From positions 1-55,630 of the forward strand of contig SWDH01000042.1 in assembly GCA_005116945.1 (NCBI GenBank): DNA of 55,630 bases, in the 5' to 3' direction. The position numbers were made by a program, and so were the translations under genes. Source of the stretch: Nitrospira sp. (lineage in GTDB: Bacteria; Nitrospirota; Nitrospiria; Nitrospirales; Nitrospiraceae). Shown here in pieces: positions 15,007 to 46,050 of the stretch; positions within the stretch are counted from its first letter, which is position 1; every line of letters begins with the position of its first letter. The notes below the pieces were generated by a model. It had not been told where the DNA came from, ran no database searches, and saw only the letters and a program-made list of their open reading frames with translations.

Positions 15007-15070
15007 TTCCCCTGCTCTAGATGCAGCGATGGTACCCTATCATAGGCTCTAAAGCGGCGCAAGCCGCACA

Positions 15071-15196
15071 GCAGGGCGCTGGAAAAGTCCGTCAGCGGCG
15101 TTCTCGCATCGTTCAGATCCTCAACGTACCCTAGAGGGTACGCCTCCCGATCTTCACTCGCTGTGGCCTTGCTGACGGCCTTTTTGAGCGCCCTGC
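15071..15196. repeat. Dispersed palindromic repeat family 1, copy A
   Basis: The ends are inverted (GCAGGGCGCTGGAAAAG and CTTTTTGAGCGCCCTGC). Inside are CCGTCAGC and GCTGACGG arms and an apex hairpin (CGTACCCTAGAGGGTACG). The single-stranded form would fold into one long stem. It lies between the divergent DUF1844 gene and the mazG promoter. Confidence 0.9.
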
Positions 15197-16220: not shown

Positions 16221-16830
16221 TGAGTCCAATCCCTACCAGGAAGGCAAGCGCGCTGGCATTCACCCGCTCATCGTCGTCTTCGTCGTCTTGATTGGGCTCT
16301 GGTTATTTGTGTTTCTCATCGTGCCCGGCTCGAAGAACAAGCAAGCCACCGGGACAGAGGGGCCAGCCGGACCGATCATCGAAGATCCTGAAGCGGCGGC
16401 TCTACTTTTCAAAGTCCAGGCCGTCGTCTCAGACATGAACGCCATCAGCCTCTCGGTTCCTCCAGAAGCAACCGACAGCCAAGTCGCCGGGCTCTTGAAG
16501 AGGTTTAAAAGCGACCGGCTGGCCGGCACCTTGACCGACCTCCTACCTCCTACCACCCCCGGCCACAAACTAGGGGACCATGCCGTTGCTGACATTTACA
16601 TTGTGTCCGACGCCCAATATGCGCAGGCCGATGTGATCCGTATTTTGACACGCGGCGCGCATGCACCAGGCAATCTCTACCCACAGGCCGTTCCCTTCGA
16701 AACGGCGATGGAAGCCATCCGTGGGCACTACCGCATCGATCTCAACGACACCGGCAATCCCGACAGCGCCTCCCTCGGCTTTGCGGATGAGTCGGGGGTG
16801 CATTCGCGTCAGTATCGAAAAATCTTTTAG
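16213..16830 (+). CDS. Membrane-anchored hypothetical protein
   Basis: This 205-residue protein has a short cytoplasmic head, one membrane segment at about 18-37 (HPLIVVFVVLIGLWLFVFLI) and a soluble, probably periplasmic domain. The soluble part has a helical region (LLFKVQAVVSDMNAISLSV) and a final alpha/beta part (ADIYIVSDAQYAQADVIRIL). I recognise no family. The ATG overlaps the mazG stop. The gene ends right at the start of family-1 repeat copy B, which may serve as its transcription terminator. Confidence 0.65.
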   Translation: MSDESNPYQEGKRAGIHPLIVVFVVLIGLWLFVFLIVPGSKNKQATGTEGPAGPIIEDPEAAALLFKVQAVVSDMNAISLSVPPEATDSQVAGLLKRFKSDRLAGTLTDLLPPTTPGHKLGDHAVADIYIVSDAQYAQADVIRILTRGAHAPGNLYPQAVPFETAMEAIRGHYRIDLNDTGNPDSASLGFADESGVHSRQYRKIF

Positions 16831-16956
16831 CAGGCTGCCCCAAAAGGCCGCCAGCTTTGTTCTCGGTTCGACAAAATCCTCAACGTACCCCAGAGGGTAC
16901 GCCTGCGGTTTTCTCTCGCCTGCGGCCGCGCTGGACGGCCTTTTTGAGCAGCCTGC
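16830..16956. repeat. Dispersed palindromic repeat family 1, copy B
   Basis: It begins at the last base of the upstream stop codon. Ends are GCAGGCTGCCCCAAAAGG and CCTTTTTGAGCAGCCTGC, with apex hairpin CGTACCCCAGAGGGTACG. The remaining 184 bases to the next gene show nothing recognisable. Confidence 0.9.
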
Positions 16957-17140
16957 AGTTCGGTACCGAAGCGGCGTTCTCATTGTCTCTGGAGCAGGAA
17001 CCTGTAGAATCTCCATCAGGCTGTCCCGTAGCATTAACGGCATGGGTGCCTGTGTGATTGCAAGATCTGACATTCATTGCCCGCGTCCGTCCAGGATACT
17101 TGTAAGAAGTGCTGTCGAAGAAACCTGACGGGGCGATTGC

Positions 17141-18044: not shown

Positions 18045-18099
18045 GGCAATCTCCAGTAGGCTGCGAAACACTCAATTTACACGCAAACACCGTATACCC

Positions 18100-18324
18100 G
18101 CAGGCTGCTCAAAAAGGCCGTCAGCAAGGCCGCAGCTCACGATCACTCTATTTAAGGGGTGGCTGAGATAATCCCAACTGCGCGCATTAACTCAATCCCC
18201 AATTCATTTTCAAGGGTAGCCTGGTCGATCCTCGATTGCGCGCGTCGAACGAGCACATTCTTATCGTGCGCGTTCCGCGAGCAGGAGGACTGCCAGGCCA
18301 CCCAACCCCTTTTCAGCATCCTGC
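18100..18324. repeat. Composite repeat: family-1 ends enclosing a family-2 core
   Basis: The left end (GCAGGCTGCTCAAAAAGG, then CCGTCAGCAAGGCCGCAG) is one half of family 1. The right end (CTTTTCAGCATCCTGC) is the other family-1 end in inverted orientation. Between them lies a family-2 core of about 145 bases (CAAGGGTAGCCTGGTCGATC, CGATTGCGCGCGTCGAACGA). The last base touches the hemG stop codon. The frame that crosses it is not a gene. Confidence 0.8.
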
Positions 18325-22175: not shown

Positions 22176-22296
22176 CGCTGAAAAAGTCCGTCAGCTTCGT
22201 TCTCACCTCAAAAGCATCCTCAACGTAGCCCAGAGGCTACGCCTCCGGTGCTTCCATCGGCTGCGGCCTTGCTGACAGCCTTTTTGAGCATCCTGC
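22170..22296. repeat. Dispersed palindromic repeat family 1, copy D
   Basis: It overlaps the stop codon of the HEAT gene. Ends are GCATGACGCTGAAAAAG and CTTTTTGAGCATCCTGC, with apex hairpin CGTAGCCCAGAGGCTACG. The apex stem has matching changes on both sides compared with copy A (CGTACCC to CGTAGCC, GGGTACG to GGCTACG), which supports pairing. Confidence 0.9.
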
Positions 22297-22342
22297 AATC
22301 ACAGAAGCCGTGAAGGTGGAACGGGAACTGTCGGAGGATCTT

Positions 22343-26473: not shown

Positions 26474-26603
26474 TGCATTTCCTCGATATTGGTGTCGATG
26501 TGGGTGTTGTCGTGAGAGAGCAGCCTAGCGGGCTGCGGAAAAGCTCTGTGTGCGCACCGAAGTTTCACTCATTCACATGTCTATGAAATGGGGAGAATAT
26601 TCC

Positions 26604-26730
26604 AGCAGGATGCTCAAAAAGGCCGTTCAGCAAGGCCGCAGGCAAATCGAAACCGGAGGCGTACCCTCGGGGGTACGTTGAGGATTTCAATGAGCCGAGA
26701 ACGAAGCTGGCGGACTTTTTCAGCATCCTG
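26604..26730. repeat. Dispersed palindromic repeat family 1, copy E
   Basis: It is in inverted orientation relative to copy A. Ends are GCAGGATGCTCAAAAAGG and CTTTTTCAGCATCCTG, with apex hairpin CGTACCCTCGGGGGTACG. It lies six bases after the stop of the minus-strand gene at 26737, mirroring copies B and D. Confidence 0.9.
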
Positions 26731-27613: not shown

Positions 27614-27822
27614 CAGGATGCTGAAAAAGTCCGCCAGCATCGTTCTCGCATCGTTCAGAGGCTCAACGTTGAGGGGTACCCCTCGGATATTCGAATTACC
27701 GAAGGGGCTTATCCGTTCGCCAAGATTCATTGCAAGGGCGAACGGTCACACGAAGTGCGGTCCGTACCTCCTCGCCTCCTCGCTCGCTGCGGCCTTGCTG
27801 AACGGCCTTTTTGAGCATCCTG
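27614..27822. repeat. Dispersed palindromic repeat family 1, copy F (expanded apex)
   Basis: Ends are CAGGATGCTGAAAAAG and CTTTTTGAGCATCCTG. The apex is expanded by about 80 bases (GGGGTACCCC at its centre, then an A+T-richer segment) compared with other copies. The arms GTCCGCCAGC and GCTGAACGGC are typical. Confidence 0.85.
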
Positions 27823-27999
27823 AAGCGATTGGAACATCGGCGCCGTTCTGGAAAATCCCACGGTGCTTTGGTACATGCACCGAGTTTTTCCGGCGCATGT
27901 TGGTTCGTGCGGGATTATAACGGAGACAGGTTCGGCGATCAAAGCACTTGTTTTCGCAATTGCTTGTCGGTACAGCACCTCGCAGGTACGATTGCTTGA

Positions 28000-40746: not shown

Positions 40747-40880
40747 CGGATGCTGAAAAAGCCCGCCAGCAGCGTTCTCGCATCGTGCAGACCCTCAACG
40801 TACCCAGAGGGTACGCCTCGGGCCTGCACTCGCTGCGGCCTTGCTGAACGGCCTTGCTGAACGGCCTTTTTGAGCATCCG
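40747..40880. repeat. Dispersed palindromic repeat family 1, copy G (inside the flagellar operon)
   Basis: It begins one base after the fliE stop and ends 43 bases before fliF. Ends are CGGATGCTGAAAAAG and CTTTTTGAGCATCCG, with apex hairpin CGTACCCAGAGGGTACG. A 13-base tandem duplication (CCTTGCTGAACGG twice) is present in the right arm. It would interrupt or attenuate transcription from fliE into fliF. Confidence 0.9.
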
Positions 40881-40923: not shown

Positions 40924-42483
40924 ATGCTGTCTAAGTTTTCCATCAATCAGCGCATGATCATTCTGATTGCGCTTGCCGGCTCTGTTGCCGGCCTTATCGC
41001 GCTAGCATTATGGACGCAACAGCCCGATATGCAGGTGCTGTTCACAAACCTCAATCCTGAGGATGCGGCAGGGATTGTGGATAAGCTGAAAGAAACGAAA
41101 GTCCCATATGAGACGACCGGCGGCGGCGCCACGGTGCTTGTTCCTAGTGCACAAGTTCATGAATTGCGGTTGCAGTTGGCCTCCCAGGGCCTTCCCCATG
41201 GGGGTGGAGTGGGTTTTGAAATCTTCGATCGATCGTCGATCGGCATGTCCGATTTCGTTCAGAAACTCAATTATCGTCGCGCACTGCAAGGCGAATTGGC
41301 ACGGACGATTGCCCAAATGCCGGAGATCGAACGAGCCCGCGTTCACCTCGCCACTCCGGAGCGGCGCTTGTTCTCCAGTGAAGAGAATCGGGCGCGGGCT
41401 TCGGTTGTCGTGTCGTTGCGGAACGGGCAAGCACTTGCGAAGACCCAAGTGAATGGGATTGTCCATCTCGTGTCGAGCAGCGTCGAGGGCCTACAAGTCA
41501 AGGATGTCACGGTGGTAGATGGACATGGACGGCTCCTTTCATCCGCAGCCGGAAGCGACGATGCTGCGGGGCTCACCGGATCGCAACTGGAATACCAGCG
41601 AACGGTTGAAAAAGATATCGAAACTCGCATCCAAACGATGTTGGAACGAATCGTCGGGGTGAATAAAGCCGTGGTGCGGGTGTCCAGCATTCTCGACTTT
41701 CGTAAAGTGGAAACGACTGAAGAGAAATACGATCCGAATAGTCAAGTCGTTCGAAGCGAACAGCGAGGTCAGGAAAAGGCGAATGGGGTCAACGGTGTAT
41801 CCGGCGGCGTGCCGGGTGTCCAGTCGAATGTCCCGGAAGGGGCGGCCCAAGAGCCGGCTCAAACGAGTTCGAGCGCGAATCAGACCAAGAACGAAACCGT
41901 GAATTATGAAATCAGCCGGACCGTCTCTCGAGTCGTCGAATCGACCGGCAGCATCAAGCAACTTTCCGTCGCGGTGTTGGTGGATGGGATGTACGAAGGC
42001 GGCAAGGCCTCCGAGGGTGAGAAAACGTCAACCAGCGTGGCGAAGAAGTATGTGGCACGATCTGAAGAGGACATGAAGCGTATCGAAGAAATCGTCAAAA
42101 AAGCCATGGGTTATTCAGCGGACCGGCAGGATCAAGTCCAAGTGACCAACGTGCAATTCGATATTGCGACGGAAGAACCGCCCGCGCAGGGCGTCGAGGC
42201 TGCGGCTGAGCCGGCCAATTCCTTTACTCCCTATATTCGTTATGCGGTTGGGGGAGGGCTCTTTCTTCTCATCCTCTTCATGGTGGTACGTCCTCTGATG
42301 GCTATGCTGGGGACGACGGGGCAATCGGCTGAAGGGGTCACCACGCCGCAGTTGCCCGCTTCGGTGAGTCAGGTCGAAGCCTCAATCGCAGGAGGAAAGC
42401 CCCGCGCACAGATCGTCGATATGGCGCGTGGTAATCCTGATGCTGCGACGATGGTCGTCAAACAATGGTTGAAAACCAGCTAG
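40924..42483 (+). CDS. fliF: Flagellar MS-ring protein FliF
   Basis: FliF forms the MS ring of the flagellar motor in the inner membrane. The 519-residue protein has an N-terminal membrane segment (MIILIALAGSVAGLIALALW), a large ring-forming domain (ALQGELARTIAQMPEIERAR), a variable low-complexity linker and a second membrane segment (YAVGGGLFLLILFMVVRPLM). The C-terminal FliG-binding helix reads AQIVDMARGNPDAATMVVKQ. The protein is complete. AGGAG nine bases upstream supports the ATG. No fliG or other flagellar gene follows, so the usual operon stops here. Confidence 0.95.
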   Translation: MLSKFSINQRMIILIALAGSVAGLIALALWTQQPDMQVLFTNLNPEDAAGIVDKLKETKVPYETTGGGATVLVPSAQVHELRLQLASQGLPHGGGVGFEIFDRSSIGMSDFVQKLNYRRALQGELARTIAQMPEIERARVHLATPERRLFSSEENRARASVVVSLRNGQALAKTQVNGIVHLVSSSVEGLQVKDVTVVDGHGRLLSSAAGSDDAAGLTGSQLEYQRTVEKDIETRIQTMLERIVGVNKAVVRVSSILDFRKVETTEEKYDPNSQVVRSEQRGQEKANGVNGVSGGVPGVQSNVPEGAAQEPAQTSSSANQTKNETVNYEISRTVSRVVESTGSIKQLSVAVLVDGMYEGGKASEGEKTSTSVAKKYVARSEEDMKRIEEIVKKAMGYSADRQDQVQVTNVQFDIATEEPPAQGVEAAAEPANSFTPYIRYAVGGGLFLLILFMVVRPLMAMLGTTGQSAEGVTTPQLPASVSQVEASIAGGKPRAQIVDMARGNPDAATMVVKQWLKTS

Positions 42484-42559
42484 CAGTTTGTTGACAAACG
42501 AGATGGCACCACCCGAAATGACACCTCGTCTGAGATCACTGACGGAAGCTGAATGGCCT

Positions 42560-42688
42560 GCAGGCTGTTCAGAAAGGCCGTCCAGCAAGGCCGCAGAGAG
42601 CGAAGAGGCGGAATCTCGCACTCTGTGCCGTACGTTGAGCCTCTGAGCGATGCGAGAACGAGGCTGGCGGACTTTGTCAACAGCCTGC
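42560..42688. repeat. Dispersed palindromic repeat family 1, copy H (more diverged)
   Basis: In reverse orientation. Ends are GCAGGCTGTTCAGAAAGG and CTTTGTCAACAGCCTGC. The apex hairpin is weaker than in other copies. It is the most diverged copy and merges into a frame that continues as the remnant at 42718. Confidence 0.8.
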
Positions 42689-42717
42689 TAGCAAGTTGTC
42701 CACCAACTTTAAACAAT

Positions 42718-42915
42718 GTGGAGATCAAGCCCTACGGCGGGTATCCCCAGTTCTACGACGTGAAGATCACCCAGCTGATTGAGCAGGTGAATCCGGGGGG
42801 ACAGGTGTGGAACGTCCGAGTGGGCCGGAAACACCCCGCGCCCTATGGTGTCACCTGGCCTGCGGGTCTTTTTGTTACGTCGAGAAAGTATTTTCCTGCC
42901 CGGCCTTGTTCATGA
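42718..42915 (+). pseudogene. Possible 3' remnant of a lost gene
   Basis: Sixty-five codons read as protein-like sequence (VEIKPYGGYPQFYDVKITQL and later NPGGQVWNVRVGRKHPAPYG), ending at TGA 42915. The frame is open back through repeat copy H, but no start signal is convincing; a GTG at 42718 is possible. I recognise no family. It may be the tail of a gene whose 5' part was replaced by the repeat. Confidence 0.35.
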
Positions 42916-43079
42916 GAGCTTCACAGCAACCTTCAAAGGCCGGTGTAGCTGGAACTGTCTGGCGATCTAATGGTACTGTTTCCCTCGCCTGACTTGTACG
43001 AGATGTCCTGCCACCCGTTATGATGATGGGTCTAGATGGTGGCACAAGCTGACTTACTGCATGATGAGCGCAGAGCGCG

Positions 43080-44540
43080 ATGCCAAATAAGGCGAGTCTC
43101 GATATTCGTTCTCCTGCAGCCGCCACGGATGATACGGAGATACTCAACCGCAGCCTGAGTCTCTGGAACAGCCTGACGATTGGCTTTGCCACTGTATCAC
43201 CAGTGGCTGGGCTGTACGCGATCATTGGTGTGCAGACGGTGGTGACAGGAGGCGGGTGGTTTGGCGCGCTGGCGCTCTGTCTCGTGATGCAGATGTTGGT
43301 GGCGACCGTCTACGCAGAGCTCTCCTCGCAGATTCCGATTGCGGGAGGCGCATACAAGTGGGCACGGCAACTCGGAGGCGTCACCGCCGGGAAGTATGCT
43401 GGTGTCATCTACGTCAGTTCCACCATCGCCATGCTCACCACGACCGCCTATACCGGGGGTGTCTGGCTTGCGCTCTTTTTTGGATCTGGGAGTAGAGGAG
43501 GGCTCACCTTAGTGATATGGGGCGCTGTGTTTTTAATACTCTGCACGCTCCTCAACCTGGCTCACGTGAATGTGTTTAAACTGGTGATTTCCCTGGGTGT
43601 GTATGCGGAAATCGTCGGGTCGTTCGGCGTGGCGCTGCTGCTGTTTTTCTTTTTCAGACAACATTCATTTTCCGAACTGTTCCAGCATCTCGGGACAGGG
43701 ACTGCACCCAGCCAGACGGCGGCATTTCTGGCAGCGCTCGCCATTTCTGGGTGGGCCTTCATCGGCTTCGATGCCTGCTCCACCATCGCGGAAGAAACCC
43801 ACAACCCCAAGCGGATGGTTCCACGCGCGATCTTTTTGTCCCTTTGCATGGTGGGAGGGGTGGTGCTCTTCAACTCCGCCGCCCTGACCTTGAGCTTCAA
43901 TCGTGAGGCTTTGGTGAATACCAGTGCCACGTCCGACCCTGTCACTCCTGTGATAGTCAGCAGCTTTGGAGCCTGGGCTGAAACACCTTTTCTCGCGATC
44001 GTCATGATTGCCTTCCTGGCGTGCGGGGCCTCTATGGTGCAATACACGTCGCGGATTGTGTACTCCATGGCTCGCGAGGGCAACATGCCTATGGTGTTGA
44101 GCCGGGTCACGGCCTCCAAGATTCCACGCAATGCAGTGATCTGCGTGGTGCTGTTGGCAGGGATCGGGCTGCTGTTCGGCCTGAACGATGGAGCCGTAGC
44201 CACAATAATCGCCTTCGGCACAGGCGGGCTGTACGCCATGTTTGCCATGACGACCGGGGTCGGGCTCTATACTCGGCTCACAGGCCGTTGGAACCCGGCT
44301 CTGGGTGAGCTTAGGCTGGGAGGCTGGGGTCTTGCGATCAATGTGGCCGCCTTTTTCTGGTCCTTGTTTGAATTCGCGAACATCGCCTGGCCTCGTGTCT
44401 ACGCGGTTGCACCGGATGCGCCCTGGTGGCAGCTCTGGGCTGTCCCGCTGGTATTGGGTAGTATTCTAGGTGTCACGACCCTGTATGTGCTCATCAGTCA
44501 TGTTCGTAGGGATTCCTCGATTGAATCATTCGATGTGTAG
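43080..44540 (+). CDS. APC-family amino acid/polyamine permease
   Basis: This 486-residue protein has about 12 membrane segments and the APC-family pattern. LWNSLTIGFATVSPVAGLYA opens the first segment, ELSSQIPIAGGAYKWARQLG is the conserved loop, and WAFIGFDACSTIAEETHNPK is the typical mid-protein motif. It is an amino-acid or amine importer of the basic/BAT1-like branch; the substrate cannot be read from sequence. It faces the ureohydrolase gene, and the pair share a terminator. The link suggests that the substrate is a guanidino or amine compound. That is inference. Confidence 0.85.
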   Translation: MPNKASLDIRSPAAATDDTEILNRSLSLWNSLTIGFATVSPVAGLYAIIGVQTVVTGGGWFGALALCLVMQMLVATVYAELSSQIPIAGGAYKWARQLGGVTAGKYAGVIYVSSTIAMLTTTAYTGGVWLALFFGSGSRGGLTLVIWGAVFLILCTLLNLAHVNVFKLVISLGVYAEIVGSFGVALLLFFFFRQHSFSELFQHLGTGTAPSQTAAFLAALAISGWAFIGFDACSTIAEETHNPKRMVPRAIFLSLCMVGGVVLFNSAALTLSFNREALVNTSATSDPVTPVIVSSFGAWAETPFLAIVMIAFLACGASMVQYTSRIVYSMAREGNMPMVLSRVTASKIPRNAVICVVLLAGIGLLFGLNDGAVATIIAFGTGGLYAMFAMTTGVGLYTRLTGRWNPALGELRLGGWGLAINVAAFFWSLFEFANIAWPRVYAVAPDAPWWQLWAVPLVLGSILGVTTLYVLISHVRRDSSIESFDV

Positions 44541-44549
44541 GAAAATACA

Positions 44550-44585
44550 ATGAGGCGTCTCGCATTATGTTGCGAGACGCCTCAT
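44550..44585. terminator. Bidirectional terminator hairpin
   Basis: ATGAGGCGTCTCGCA (44550-44564) pairs perfectly with TGCGAGACGCCTCAT (44571-44585) around a 6-base loop. It sits ten bases after the permease stop and 18 bases after the hydrolase stop on the other strand. It probably ends both transcripts, though no long U-run follows. Confidence 0.8.
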
Positions 44586-44603
44586 CTGACCCGCGCGCAC
44601 CTT

Positions 44604-45755
44604 TTACAGCTTCTTTTTCCGGTTCGGTAGATGGCCTGAGCGCACCTGGCAGGCCAAGACATCCATAATGACGCGAGTGGAGATCAGCGCGGTGATCTCC
44701 GCTGCGTCGTAGGGCGGAGAGCACTCGACAATTTCAATTCCAGCGATTGGCTTGCTGTCTGCAATGACTTGAAGGAACTTCAACACTTCGCGCGGCAAGA
44801 ACCCGCCTGGTTCCGGCCATCCCGTTCCAGGCACGAAGGCGGCGTCCAAGCAATCCACGTCGAAGCTGAGCCAGACCGCATCGACGCCATCCCAGGCCAC
44901 TTCGAGCGCTCGTTTTGCCGCAGTCTCAATCCCCATCTCCACACAATCGGTGACGGTCATGATCGTGGTTTGCCGTTCACGTCCTGCCTTCACACCGGGT
45001 CGCGGCGCTTGCCAGCCGCCAATCCCGATTTGCACGAGATTTTTTGCGGGCACGTTGGGCATGTTGGTCGCGTGAAACCAGGGTGTGGTGTGCATGCGCT
45101 CATCGAGATCGGTCTCTTGTGTATCCACATGCCGGTCGAAATGGATGATGCCGAGCTTGCCTCCGTTTAGATTTTCGGCGATTCCCCGCACGGTCGCGAA
45201 GCCCAGGGAATGGTCCCCGCCAAGCACGACGGGCAACGCTCCACTGGCGTAGACGTGCGACACCCCCTTGCTGACCTGATCGAACGTCTTTTCGATGTTG
45301 CCGGGAATGGTAAACACGTCGCCGAGATCGCATATGGTAATGGATTCCCGCAGATCCACGCCGAGTTCGAAACTATAAGATCCATAGAGAGCCGAGATTT
45401 TGCGAATGCCCTGAGGGCCGAATCGTGTGCCGGCCCGATAGGTCGTGCCGCCGTCGAATGGCGCCCCAAGAATGGCCACGTCATATTGGCCACACTTGCG
45501 TACGTCTTCGATGTAGGGCGCTTTGACAAAAGTGTTGATCCCGGCGAAGTGAGGGAGTTCTCCTCGACTGAACGTGGGAATCCGTTTGTCCTTAATGGAA
45601 TCGGCGCCAGGAAGGCCTAATTCAAGTCCACGGGCGACTTCTTCTTCCCACTTTGTGGTCGGCAACAGCGCTTCGGCTTCGACAGCGTACTTGGCTTCAG
45701 GGCCATAGTTGTCATGCAAGGGAACCTTTCCTCGGTATTTTCGCTCTTTCGCCAA
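44604..45755 (-). CDS. Arginase/agmatinase-fold ureohydrolase, candidate guanidine hydrolase
   Basis: This 383-residue protein has the ureohydrolase fold with an N-terminal extension of about 60 residues (LELGLPGADSIKDKRIPTFS, then HFAGINTFVKAPYIED). The metal site is built by GGDHSLG, HFDRHVDT (usual DAHxD, here with Arg for Ala) and SFDVDCLDAAFVPGTGWPEP. Length, extension and motifs fit the Ni-dependent guanidine hydrolase (GdmH) branch known from cyanobacteria and ammonia-oxidising Nitrospira, rather than classic agmatinase (about 300 residues). The substrate is inferred. The start is TTG at 45755, fixed by a perfect AAGGAGGTGA. No nickel chaperone gene lies next to it. Confidence 0.82.
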   Translation of the reverse strand: MAKERKYRGKVPLHDNYGPEAKYAVEAEALLPTTKWEEEVARGLELGLPGADSIKDKRIPTFSRGELPHFAGINTFVKAPYIEDVRKCGQYDVAILGAPFDGGTTYRAGTRFGPQGIRKISALYGSYSFELGVDLRESITICDLGDVFTIPGNIEKTFDQVSKGVSHVYASGALPVVLGGDHSLGFATVRGIAENLNGGKLGIIHFDRHVDTQETDLDERMHTTPWFHATNMPNVPAKNLVQIGIGGWQAPRPGVKAGRERQTTIMTVTDCVEMGIETAAKRALEVAWDGVDAVWLSFDVDCLDAAFVPGTGWPEPGGFLPREVLKFLQVIADSKPIAGIEIVECSPPYDAAEITALISTRVIMDVLACQVRSGHLPNRKKKL

Positions 45756-45759
45756 CGCA

Positions 45760-45769
45760 TCACCTCCTT
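45760..45769 (-). promoter_or_regulatory. Strong Shine-Dalgarno setting a TTG start
   Basis: On the minus strand AAGGAGGTGA, a full match to the 16S anti-SD, ends four bases before the TTG start of the ureohydrolase (AAGGAGG itself is seven bases away). It decides the start and suggests efficient translation despite the rare start codon. Confidence 0.85.
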
Positions 45770-45857
45770 ATACGCACTCATGGTAGGACACTGCCTGAGT
45801 CCCTATTGAACGGAATTTTAGGAGTCAGAGGAAGGGGAAGTCAAACGAGAGAACTGG

Positions 45858-46050
45858 GGAGCAGCCGGGTGCCCTTCTTGCTCGCAGAACAGAGGAAGGG
45901 ATGGAGCCGATGATCTTCTGTGCTCGCGCAACGCGCGGCCTCGGAAGGCCCTCGTTGGACGCGCGCAATGGAAGATCCATCAGCCCCCATCCCTGAGGAA
46001 AGAACGAGCGAGCGTGGAAGGAACATGTATATCGTTCGATGCGCGCAGGA
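45858..46050. repeat. Family-2-related dispersed repeat
   Basis: Shares words with the family-2 cores: CTTGCTCGCAGAAC, GCAACGCGCGGCCTCGGAAG, TTGGACGCGCGCAATGGAAG. It also matches the copy at 50574-50900. It lies between the ureohydrolase and the envelope gene cluster and ends just beyond the stop of the coiled-coil gene. Confidence 0.6.

Follow-up and report, generated by a model that had tools for sequence, protein, structure and literature searches.

The window, the whole 55,630-nucleotide stretch of Nitrospira DNA analysed here, carries with a probability of roughly 0.87 a locus for guanidine use by a comammox Nitrospira (most likely of clade B), in which a permease gene and a guanidinase gene (gdmH) are convergent, no riboswitch is detectable and gdmH has a promoter box of its own. 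In the proposed pathway, the APC permease would import guanidinium, and a Ni/Mn guanidinase would convert it to urea and ammonia, as 90% identity to a characterized enzyme and a fully conserved active site suggest. The urea would be split by urease, whose gene is present elsewhere in the genome, and the released ammonia may feed ammonia oxidation, for which amoC and part of amoB are present. gdmH would be transcribed from its own sigma70-type promoter box, probably without guanidine-gated control. The identification is ordinary but well-founded. A 2024 publication (PMC11410670) already described guanidine use by a permease-guanidinase pair in comammox, and the arrangement seen here is common in clade B. 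What is unusual at the locus is the convergent layout together with the missing riboswitch. An earlier note on this DNA did not point these out as unusual, nor did it mention the comammox nature of the organism and the published status of the gene pair. In the open-licence literature searched, the convergent layout was not found in the text of PMC11410670.

The features referred to below are as follows.

43080..44540, plus strand: APC-superfamily permease, predicted guanidine importer (486 aa; PF13520)
44550..44585, no strand assigned: perfect 15-bp hairpin between both stop codons, probable shared terminator (inverted-repeat search and RNA fold)
44604..45755, minus strand: gdmH, predicted GdmH-type guanidinase (383 aa; TTG start 3' of the AAGGAGGTGATG ribosome-binding site)
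45815..45844, minus strand: sigma70-like promoter box of gdmH, TTGACT-18-TAAAAT, 59 nt from the -10 element to the start codon
42844..42949, plus strand: stretch where other comammox loci bear a guanidine-I riboswitch and none was found (place inferred from the distance to the permease in locus L042)
42551-42695, 15070-15196, 16828-16958, 18097-18135 and 22179-22297: copies of a dispersed repeat (similarity matches)
26602-26730, 27614-27669, 27773-27825 and 40748-40867: further copies of the dispersed repeat (similarity matches)

The hydrolase, the permease and their predicted substrate

The top PDB match of the 383-aa protein is 9FEK (E 5e-247, alignment beginning at residue 1), the guanidinase of Nitrospira inopinata, which has been crystallised and assayed (PMC11410670). 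The two proteins are identical at 345 of 382 positions (90.3%), and Synechocystis GdmH shares 66% identity with the window protein. All six metal ligands (H182, D207, H209, D211, D299 and D301) and all four guanidine-linked residues (T105, H222, W313 and E344) are found at their N. inopinata numbers; the ligand numbering comes from a figure legend of PMC11410670, where T105 and W313 serve as guanidinase markers. The arginase-fold domain PF00491 spans residues 92-367 (256 bits) and thus leaves about 90 residues ahead of it, in agreement with the earlier note, which had described an arginase fold with an N-terminal extension. From the 90% identity and these residues, we infer that the product of 44604-45755 is a GdmH-type guanidinase.

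The permease gene encodes a comammox APC permease and faces gdmH, just as the earlier note had read the pair; their stop codons lie 63 nt apart. Elsewhere in the genus, close homologues reach 83-92% identity, and those that precede gdmH in clade-A loci 73-89%. Between the stop codons lies the only inverted repeat found in 43000-46000, with fully complementary 15-nt arms (44550-44564 and 44571-44585) around a 6-nt loop. The predicted RNA fold has a free energy of -29.9 kcal/mol (z -6.6), and none of 200 shuffled sequences folds as well. The hairpin is retained in the clade-B MAG CG24A with a different loop and one compensatory change from a C-G to a T-A pair; an exact search for the window's hairpin sequence did not find it in the remaining loci examined. 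Being a single pair compared between two sequences, this change hints only weakly that the stem is under selection, its simplest role being that of a shared terminator. A hairpin ending both genes had been proposed before, and the perfect stem fits this; a T-rich tail received a score in the minus (gdmH) direction alone.

Two other readings of the gene pair would change its substrate. The hydrolase could be an agmatinase or another guanidino-acid hydrolase, with the permease importing an amine or amino acid; the PDB title of 9FEK does read 'putative agmatinase 2', and NCBIfam agmatinase models match the protein at 162-201 bits. However, all five NCBIfam models that match (of agmatinase, arginase and formimidoylglutamase types) remain below their curated cut-offs, including the agmatinase equivalog TIGR01230 (162.3 bits against a cut-off of 174.3), and both T105 and W313 are present. 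Moreover, the text of PMC11410670 describes very little urea formation from agmatine by the 90% identical N. inopinata enzyme, and none detected from five other guanidino compounds. Identity to proclavaminate amidinohydrolase, guanidinobutyrase and guanidinopropionase is 30-39%, with guanidinobutyrase at 30%. The earlier note took placement within the agmatinase or guanidinobutyrase clade as evidence against its reading. In a 69-row tree, with bootstrap unsettled and some end branches long, gdmH lies on the guanidinase side of a branch with 100/99 support, together with all 57 GdmH rows, the N. inopinata and Synechocystis enzymes among them. The 12 rows on the other side are these three characterized enzymes and nine Nitrospira speB-like paralogues, an outgroup that holds no agmatinase of known activity. 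A guanidine hydrolase rather than an agmatinase, as first proposed, is what these comparisons point to, and the agmatinase reading is very improbable.

It is also unlikely, if less remote, that the enzyme is indeed a guanidinase while the permease opposite takes up a different cation and is merely co-inherited. The N. inopinata permease is described as only a putative guanidine transporter (PMC11410670), and the best NCBIfam match of the window permease is the urea-carboxylase-system permease, far below its cut-off. In addition, the permease and gdmH are about 2.8 kb apart in G002, G008, G019 and G003, with other genes between them in G008. Against this, two relatives have an 83-90% identical permease before carboxyguanidine-deiminase-type genes, with no gdmH there, and a guanidine-I riboswitch lies 5' of the permease in clade-A loci. 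gdmH, carboxyguanidine-deiminase-type genes and the riboswitch all accompany the permease, so that three guanidine features are tied to it, and a guanidine importer is the reading we prefer.

The comammox host and its nickel supply

The window's own MAG (3.39 Mb, 82% complete) contains three amoC genes, an amoB truncated at a contig end and urease alpha, which together indicate a comammox host; amoA was not found in this 82%-complete assembly. Close copies of gdmH occur in 12 of the 32 genomes of the genus, ten of them near full length, one broken (G006) and one a contig-edge fragment (G016), and all 12 genomes carry amo genes. Four of the 16 amo-bearing genomes are without gdmH (G005, G009, G015 and G018). 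The other 16 genomes yield no PF02461 match and no close gdmH, except for a broken 53-70% fragment in G023. According to PMC12342949, two non-comammox members have guanidinase-like genes of 54-62% identity, described without transport genes or riboswitches. The nearest gdmH on the tree is that of CG24A (pairing 99/94). CG24A and CG24C are presented as clade-B comammox (PMC9929954, PMC6365651), and another gdmH relative goes by the name Rifle_cladeB. By this kinship, the host is most likely a comammox Nitrospira of clade B.

Two of the amo-bearing genomes without gdmH have a different gene set behind the permease. In G005, the permease is followed by two DUF1989 (PF09347) proteins, a family identified as carboxyguanidine deiminase in PMC11410670. 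In G015, a riboswitch and permease are followed by a gene resembling the DUF1989 protein of G005 (by eye) and a 1204-aa biotin carboxylase. PMC11410670 reports two comammox genomes with the guanidine carboxylase pathway.

The annotated neighbours of gdmH include no HypA/HypB-like pair, in line with the earlier note, which had remarked on the lack of an adjacent nickel-chaperone pair. hypB (TIGR00073) does not exceed its cut-off in any of the 32 genomes of the genus, our own included. A weaker match is present in 20 of the 32 and in many genomes lies a few kb from a urease gene, and these matches are therefore probably UreG. Nickel loading is likewise unexplained in N. inopinata, for which PMC11410670 mentions that no Ni chaperone was found.

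Riboswitch, promoter box and layout in clades A and B

In N. inopinata, the operon runs from riboswitch to permease to guanidinase on one strand (PMC11410670). The window locus resembles this system, as described there, in its enzyme (90% identical over the full length, with the same ligands and specificity residues), its accompanying APC permease, its comammox host with urease and the absence of a detected Ni chaperone. It differs in that the pair is convergent rather than co-directional, no guanidine-I riboswitch is detected, and an intergenic hairpin and a separate gdmH promoter box are present. The Synechocystis enzyme Sll1077 (7ESR/7OI1) shares the guanidinase clade and the specificity residues, whereas its operon, as given in PMC12186494 and PMC11410670, includes an ABC transporter, Ni-delivery proteins and a guanidine-I riboswitch, none of which was found at the window locus. 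The closest resemblance is to the clade-B MAGs CG24A, CG24C and RCB, with 95-97% identical gdmH and a convergent permease. Unlike the window, RCB has an eroded riboswitch 5' of its convergent permease and, in addition, a second copy that is co-directional and keeps an intact riboswitch, CG24C has about 2.8 kb between permease and gdmH, and CG24A lacks flagellar genes in the 7.8 kb examined upstream of the permease.

The guanidine-I riboswitch model RF00442 of Rfam has no match in the window or in its own genome, where a genome-wide riboswitch search scored 85 of 114 candidates. A further model (R1), built from 11 Nitrospira guanidine-I riboswitches and run with filters off, scores intact Nitrospira riboswitches at 97-128 bits. 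Its best match in the window reaches 10.7 bits, on the minus strand and inside a repeat, and was rejected as a degenerate riboswitch. The window's permease leader resembles those of relatives only over its last ~60-70 nt (by eye). Across the genus, RF00442 is above cut-off in two of 32 genomes (G010, which is RCB, and G015), and of the 20 group-B genomes in PMC11410670, only four are listed with the riboswitch. At the convergent RCB locus, an eroded riboswitch scores 48 bits against the Rfam cut-off of 63, and 58.8 bits with R1. This is the one exception among the eight convergent loci with a readable permease leader; the other seven (the window, G003, G004, G006, G008, G012 and G019) have no riboswitch. 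In L068 and G002 the leader is cut by a contig end, and G002 is without any RF00442 match. RCB thus has two gdmH-permease loci in one MAG (contigs C175 and C269), a riboswitch operon and a convergent pair with an eroded riboswitch.

The layout differs between the two clades. The pair is convergent in nine of the ten clade-B copies with readable layout (L066, L067 and L097 being unreadable), the exception being the second, co-directional RCB copy, whose intact riboswitch scores 88.9 bits. In clade A, by comparison, none of 25 copies is convergent; the permease precedes gdmH on the same strand in all 25 loci, although it is incomplete in three (a piece in L125, two pieces in L073 and cut by the contig end in L071). 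A guanidine-I riboswitch is present in 23 of these 25, and the contigs of the remaining two (L071 and L095) start within the permease or immediately 5' of it; nine of the 23 also contributed to R1 but were found by Rfam itself, and 14 are new. On the tree, with unknown-layout rows left out, the layouts require two changes (sign test p 0.5), so that only two contrasts connect layout with riboswitch. Support is 100/97 for the clade-A group and 91/92 (not starred) for the clade-B group, names that we carried over from CG24A, CG24C and Rifle_cladeB and from N. inopinata. The gdmH relatives compared were the best 80 of 560, of which 36 are Nitrospira-like (one titled Proteobacteria and one Nitrosospira) and 44 are others, mainly actinobacteria; of the 44, seven were searched with R1 and 14 are in the tree. 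Absent from the tree are G006 (broken gdmH), G016 (contig-edge fragment) and, as duplicates of the genomes of G004, G010, G002 and G012, loci L063, L064, L065 and L070.

Several gdmH loci lie outside this pattern. In L090, L091 and L094, no permease accompanies gdmH in the DNA examined; these loci belong to neither clade group and branch outside both with modest support. L091 is from Nitrospira sp. BO4, whose gdmH (in the region L091:9968-12741) has no close permease within 10 kb on either side, and the membrane protein encoded next to it on the 3' side resembles an ammonium transporter (by eye). Guanidine-I-like matches of 55-65 bits occur in four of the seven actinobacterial or Chloroflexota gdmH loci searched (L096, L098, L100 and L103), directly 5' of gdmH in L096, L100 and L103, and L099 has a weak match of 26 bits. 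The enzymes of these loci are 84-87% identical to the Nitrospira enzyme, a similarity that suggests transfer of gdmH between phyla.

The gdmH promoter box alone is not above chance, with one found and 1.3 expected in shuffled sequences. A box with the same 18-nt spacer nevertheless lies 5' of gdmH in eight of the 13 clade-B loci checked (G000, G002, G004, G006, G008, G012, L066 and L067), as against none of 28 others. The RCB operon copy is outside this count, and the five clade-B loci with no box before gdmH are G003, G019, the convergent RCB copy, L068 and L097. Clade-A gdmH would not be expected to have it, since there the permease gene fills the corresponding position. The loci examined (1.95 Mb, counting repeated loci) contain 37 matches to the box, five of them of different sequence, and the reversed control has none. 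The box also occurs away from gdmH in L036, L044, L045 and L055 and is thus probably a general promoter type. The gdmH leader would be at most 59 nt long and so leaves no room for a ~105-nt aptamer. Together, this leader and the gene's own sigma70-type box suggest that gdmH is probably transcribed without guanidine-gated control.

Flanking rearrangement, decay and the regulation of clade-B guanidine use

In window positions 40924-43080, fliF is followed by the intergenic repeat 42551-42695 and then by the permease. The repeat belongs to a dispersed family with matches of ~40-137 nt at 73-91% identity in the window and in other Nitrospira contigs. The junction between fliF and the permease arose either by rearrangement at the repeat or by a misjoin in the assembly: contig C24 has fliG at its extreme end, beside a copy of the fliF-side repeat, and fliF and fliG are adjacent in CG24A. 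The permease-side flank of CG24A has one 752-base and one 46-base match in our own genome, on other contigs, and synteny is therefore broken on that side. These observations could be extended to the view that the convergent layout itself is an artefact of this MAG. This is hardly credible, since the convergent pair sits downstream of the fliF-side repeat and the genes are also face to face in eight other tree loci (directly in G004, G010 and G012, farther apart in the rest) and in G006. The idea that a misjoin at this repeat had removed a riboswitch was likewise rejected, because the usual place of the riboswitch is downstream of the fliF-side repeat and could not have been cut off.

The loss of riboswitch and operon could mark the loss of guanidine use in clade B, leaving the locus a decaying relic. 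Besides the missing riboswitch here and the eroded one in RCB (R1 score of 58.8 bits, intact ones scoring 97-128), this would account for the G006 gdmH (G006:C23, L045:9024-9745), which lacks approximately codons 49-179, and for the four of 16 amo-bearing genomes without gdmH, though two of these (G005 and G015) have carboxyguanidine-deiminase-type genes after the permease. In G006, the permease facing the broken gdmH is nearly full length and the pair is convergent. At the window locus, however, both frames are open (383 and 486 aa), the active site is intact and the promoter box is kept. The dN/dS against CG24A is 0.025 for gdmH, within a range of 0.02-0.07 in six comparisons with relatives, and 0.10 for the permease. 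Decay is thus quite unlikely, and we favour a functional guanidine-use locus.

We hypothesize that in this locus the guanidinase has been uncoupled from guanidine sensing. A tentative history, which we regard as possible but short of probable, is that a riboswitch-gated operon in the clade-B lineage gave way to two convergent, separately transcribed genes, that the riboswitch was lost stepwise (RCB keeping both forms), and that gdmH came under a housekeeping-type promoter, the guanidinase now being made without guanidine sensing.

These results add a further genome, probably of clade B, to those with the published comammox guanidinase trait, and point to a contrast in regulation, with clade A riboswitch-gated and clade B mostly without a guanidine riboswitch. 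If this is true, a riboswitch-based screen would miss many clade-B guanidine users, and clade B might degrade trace guanidine at levels too low to induce clade A.
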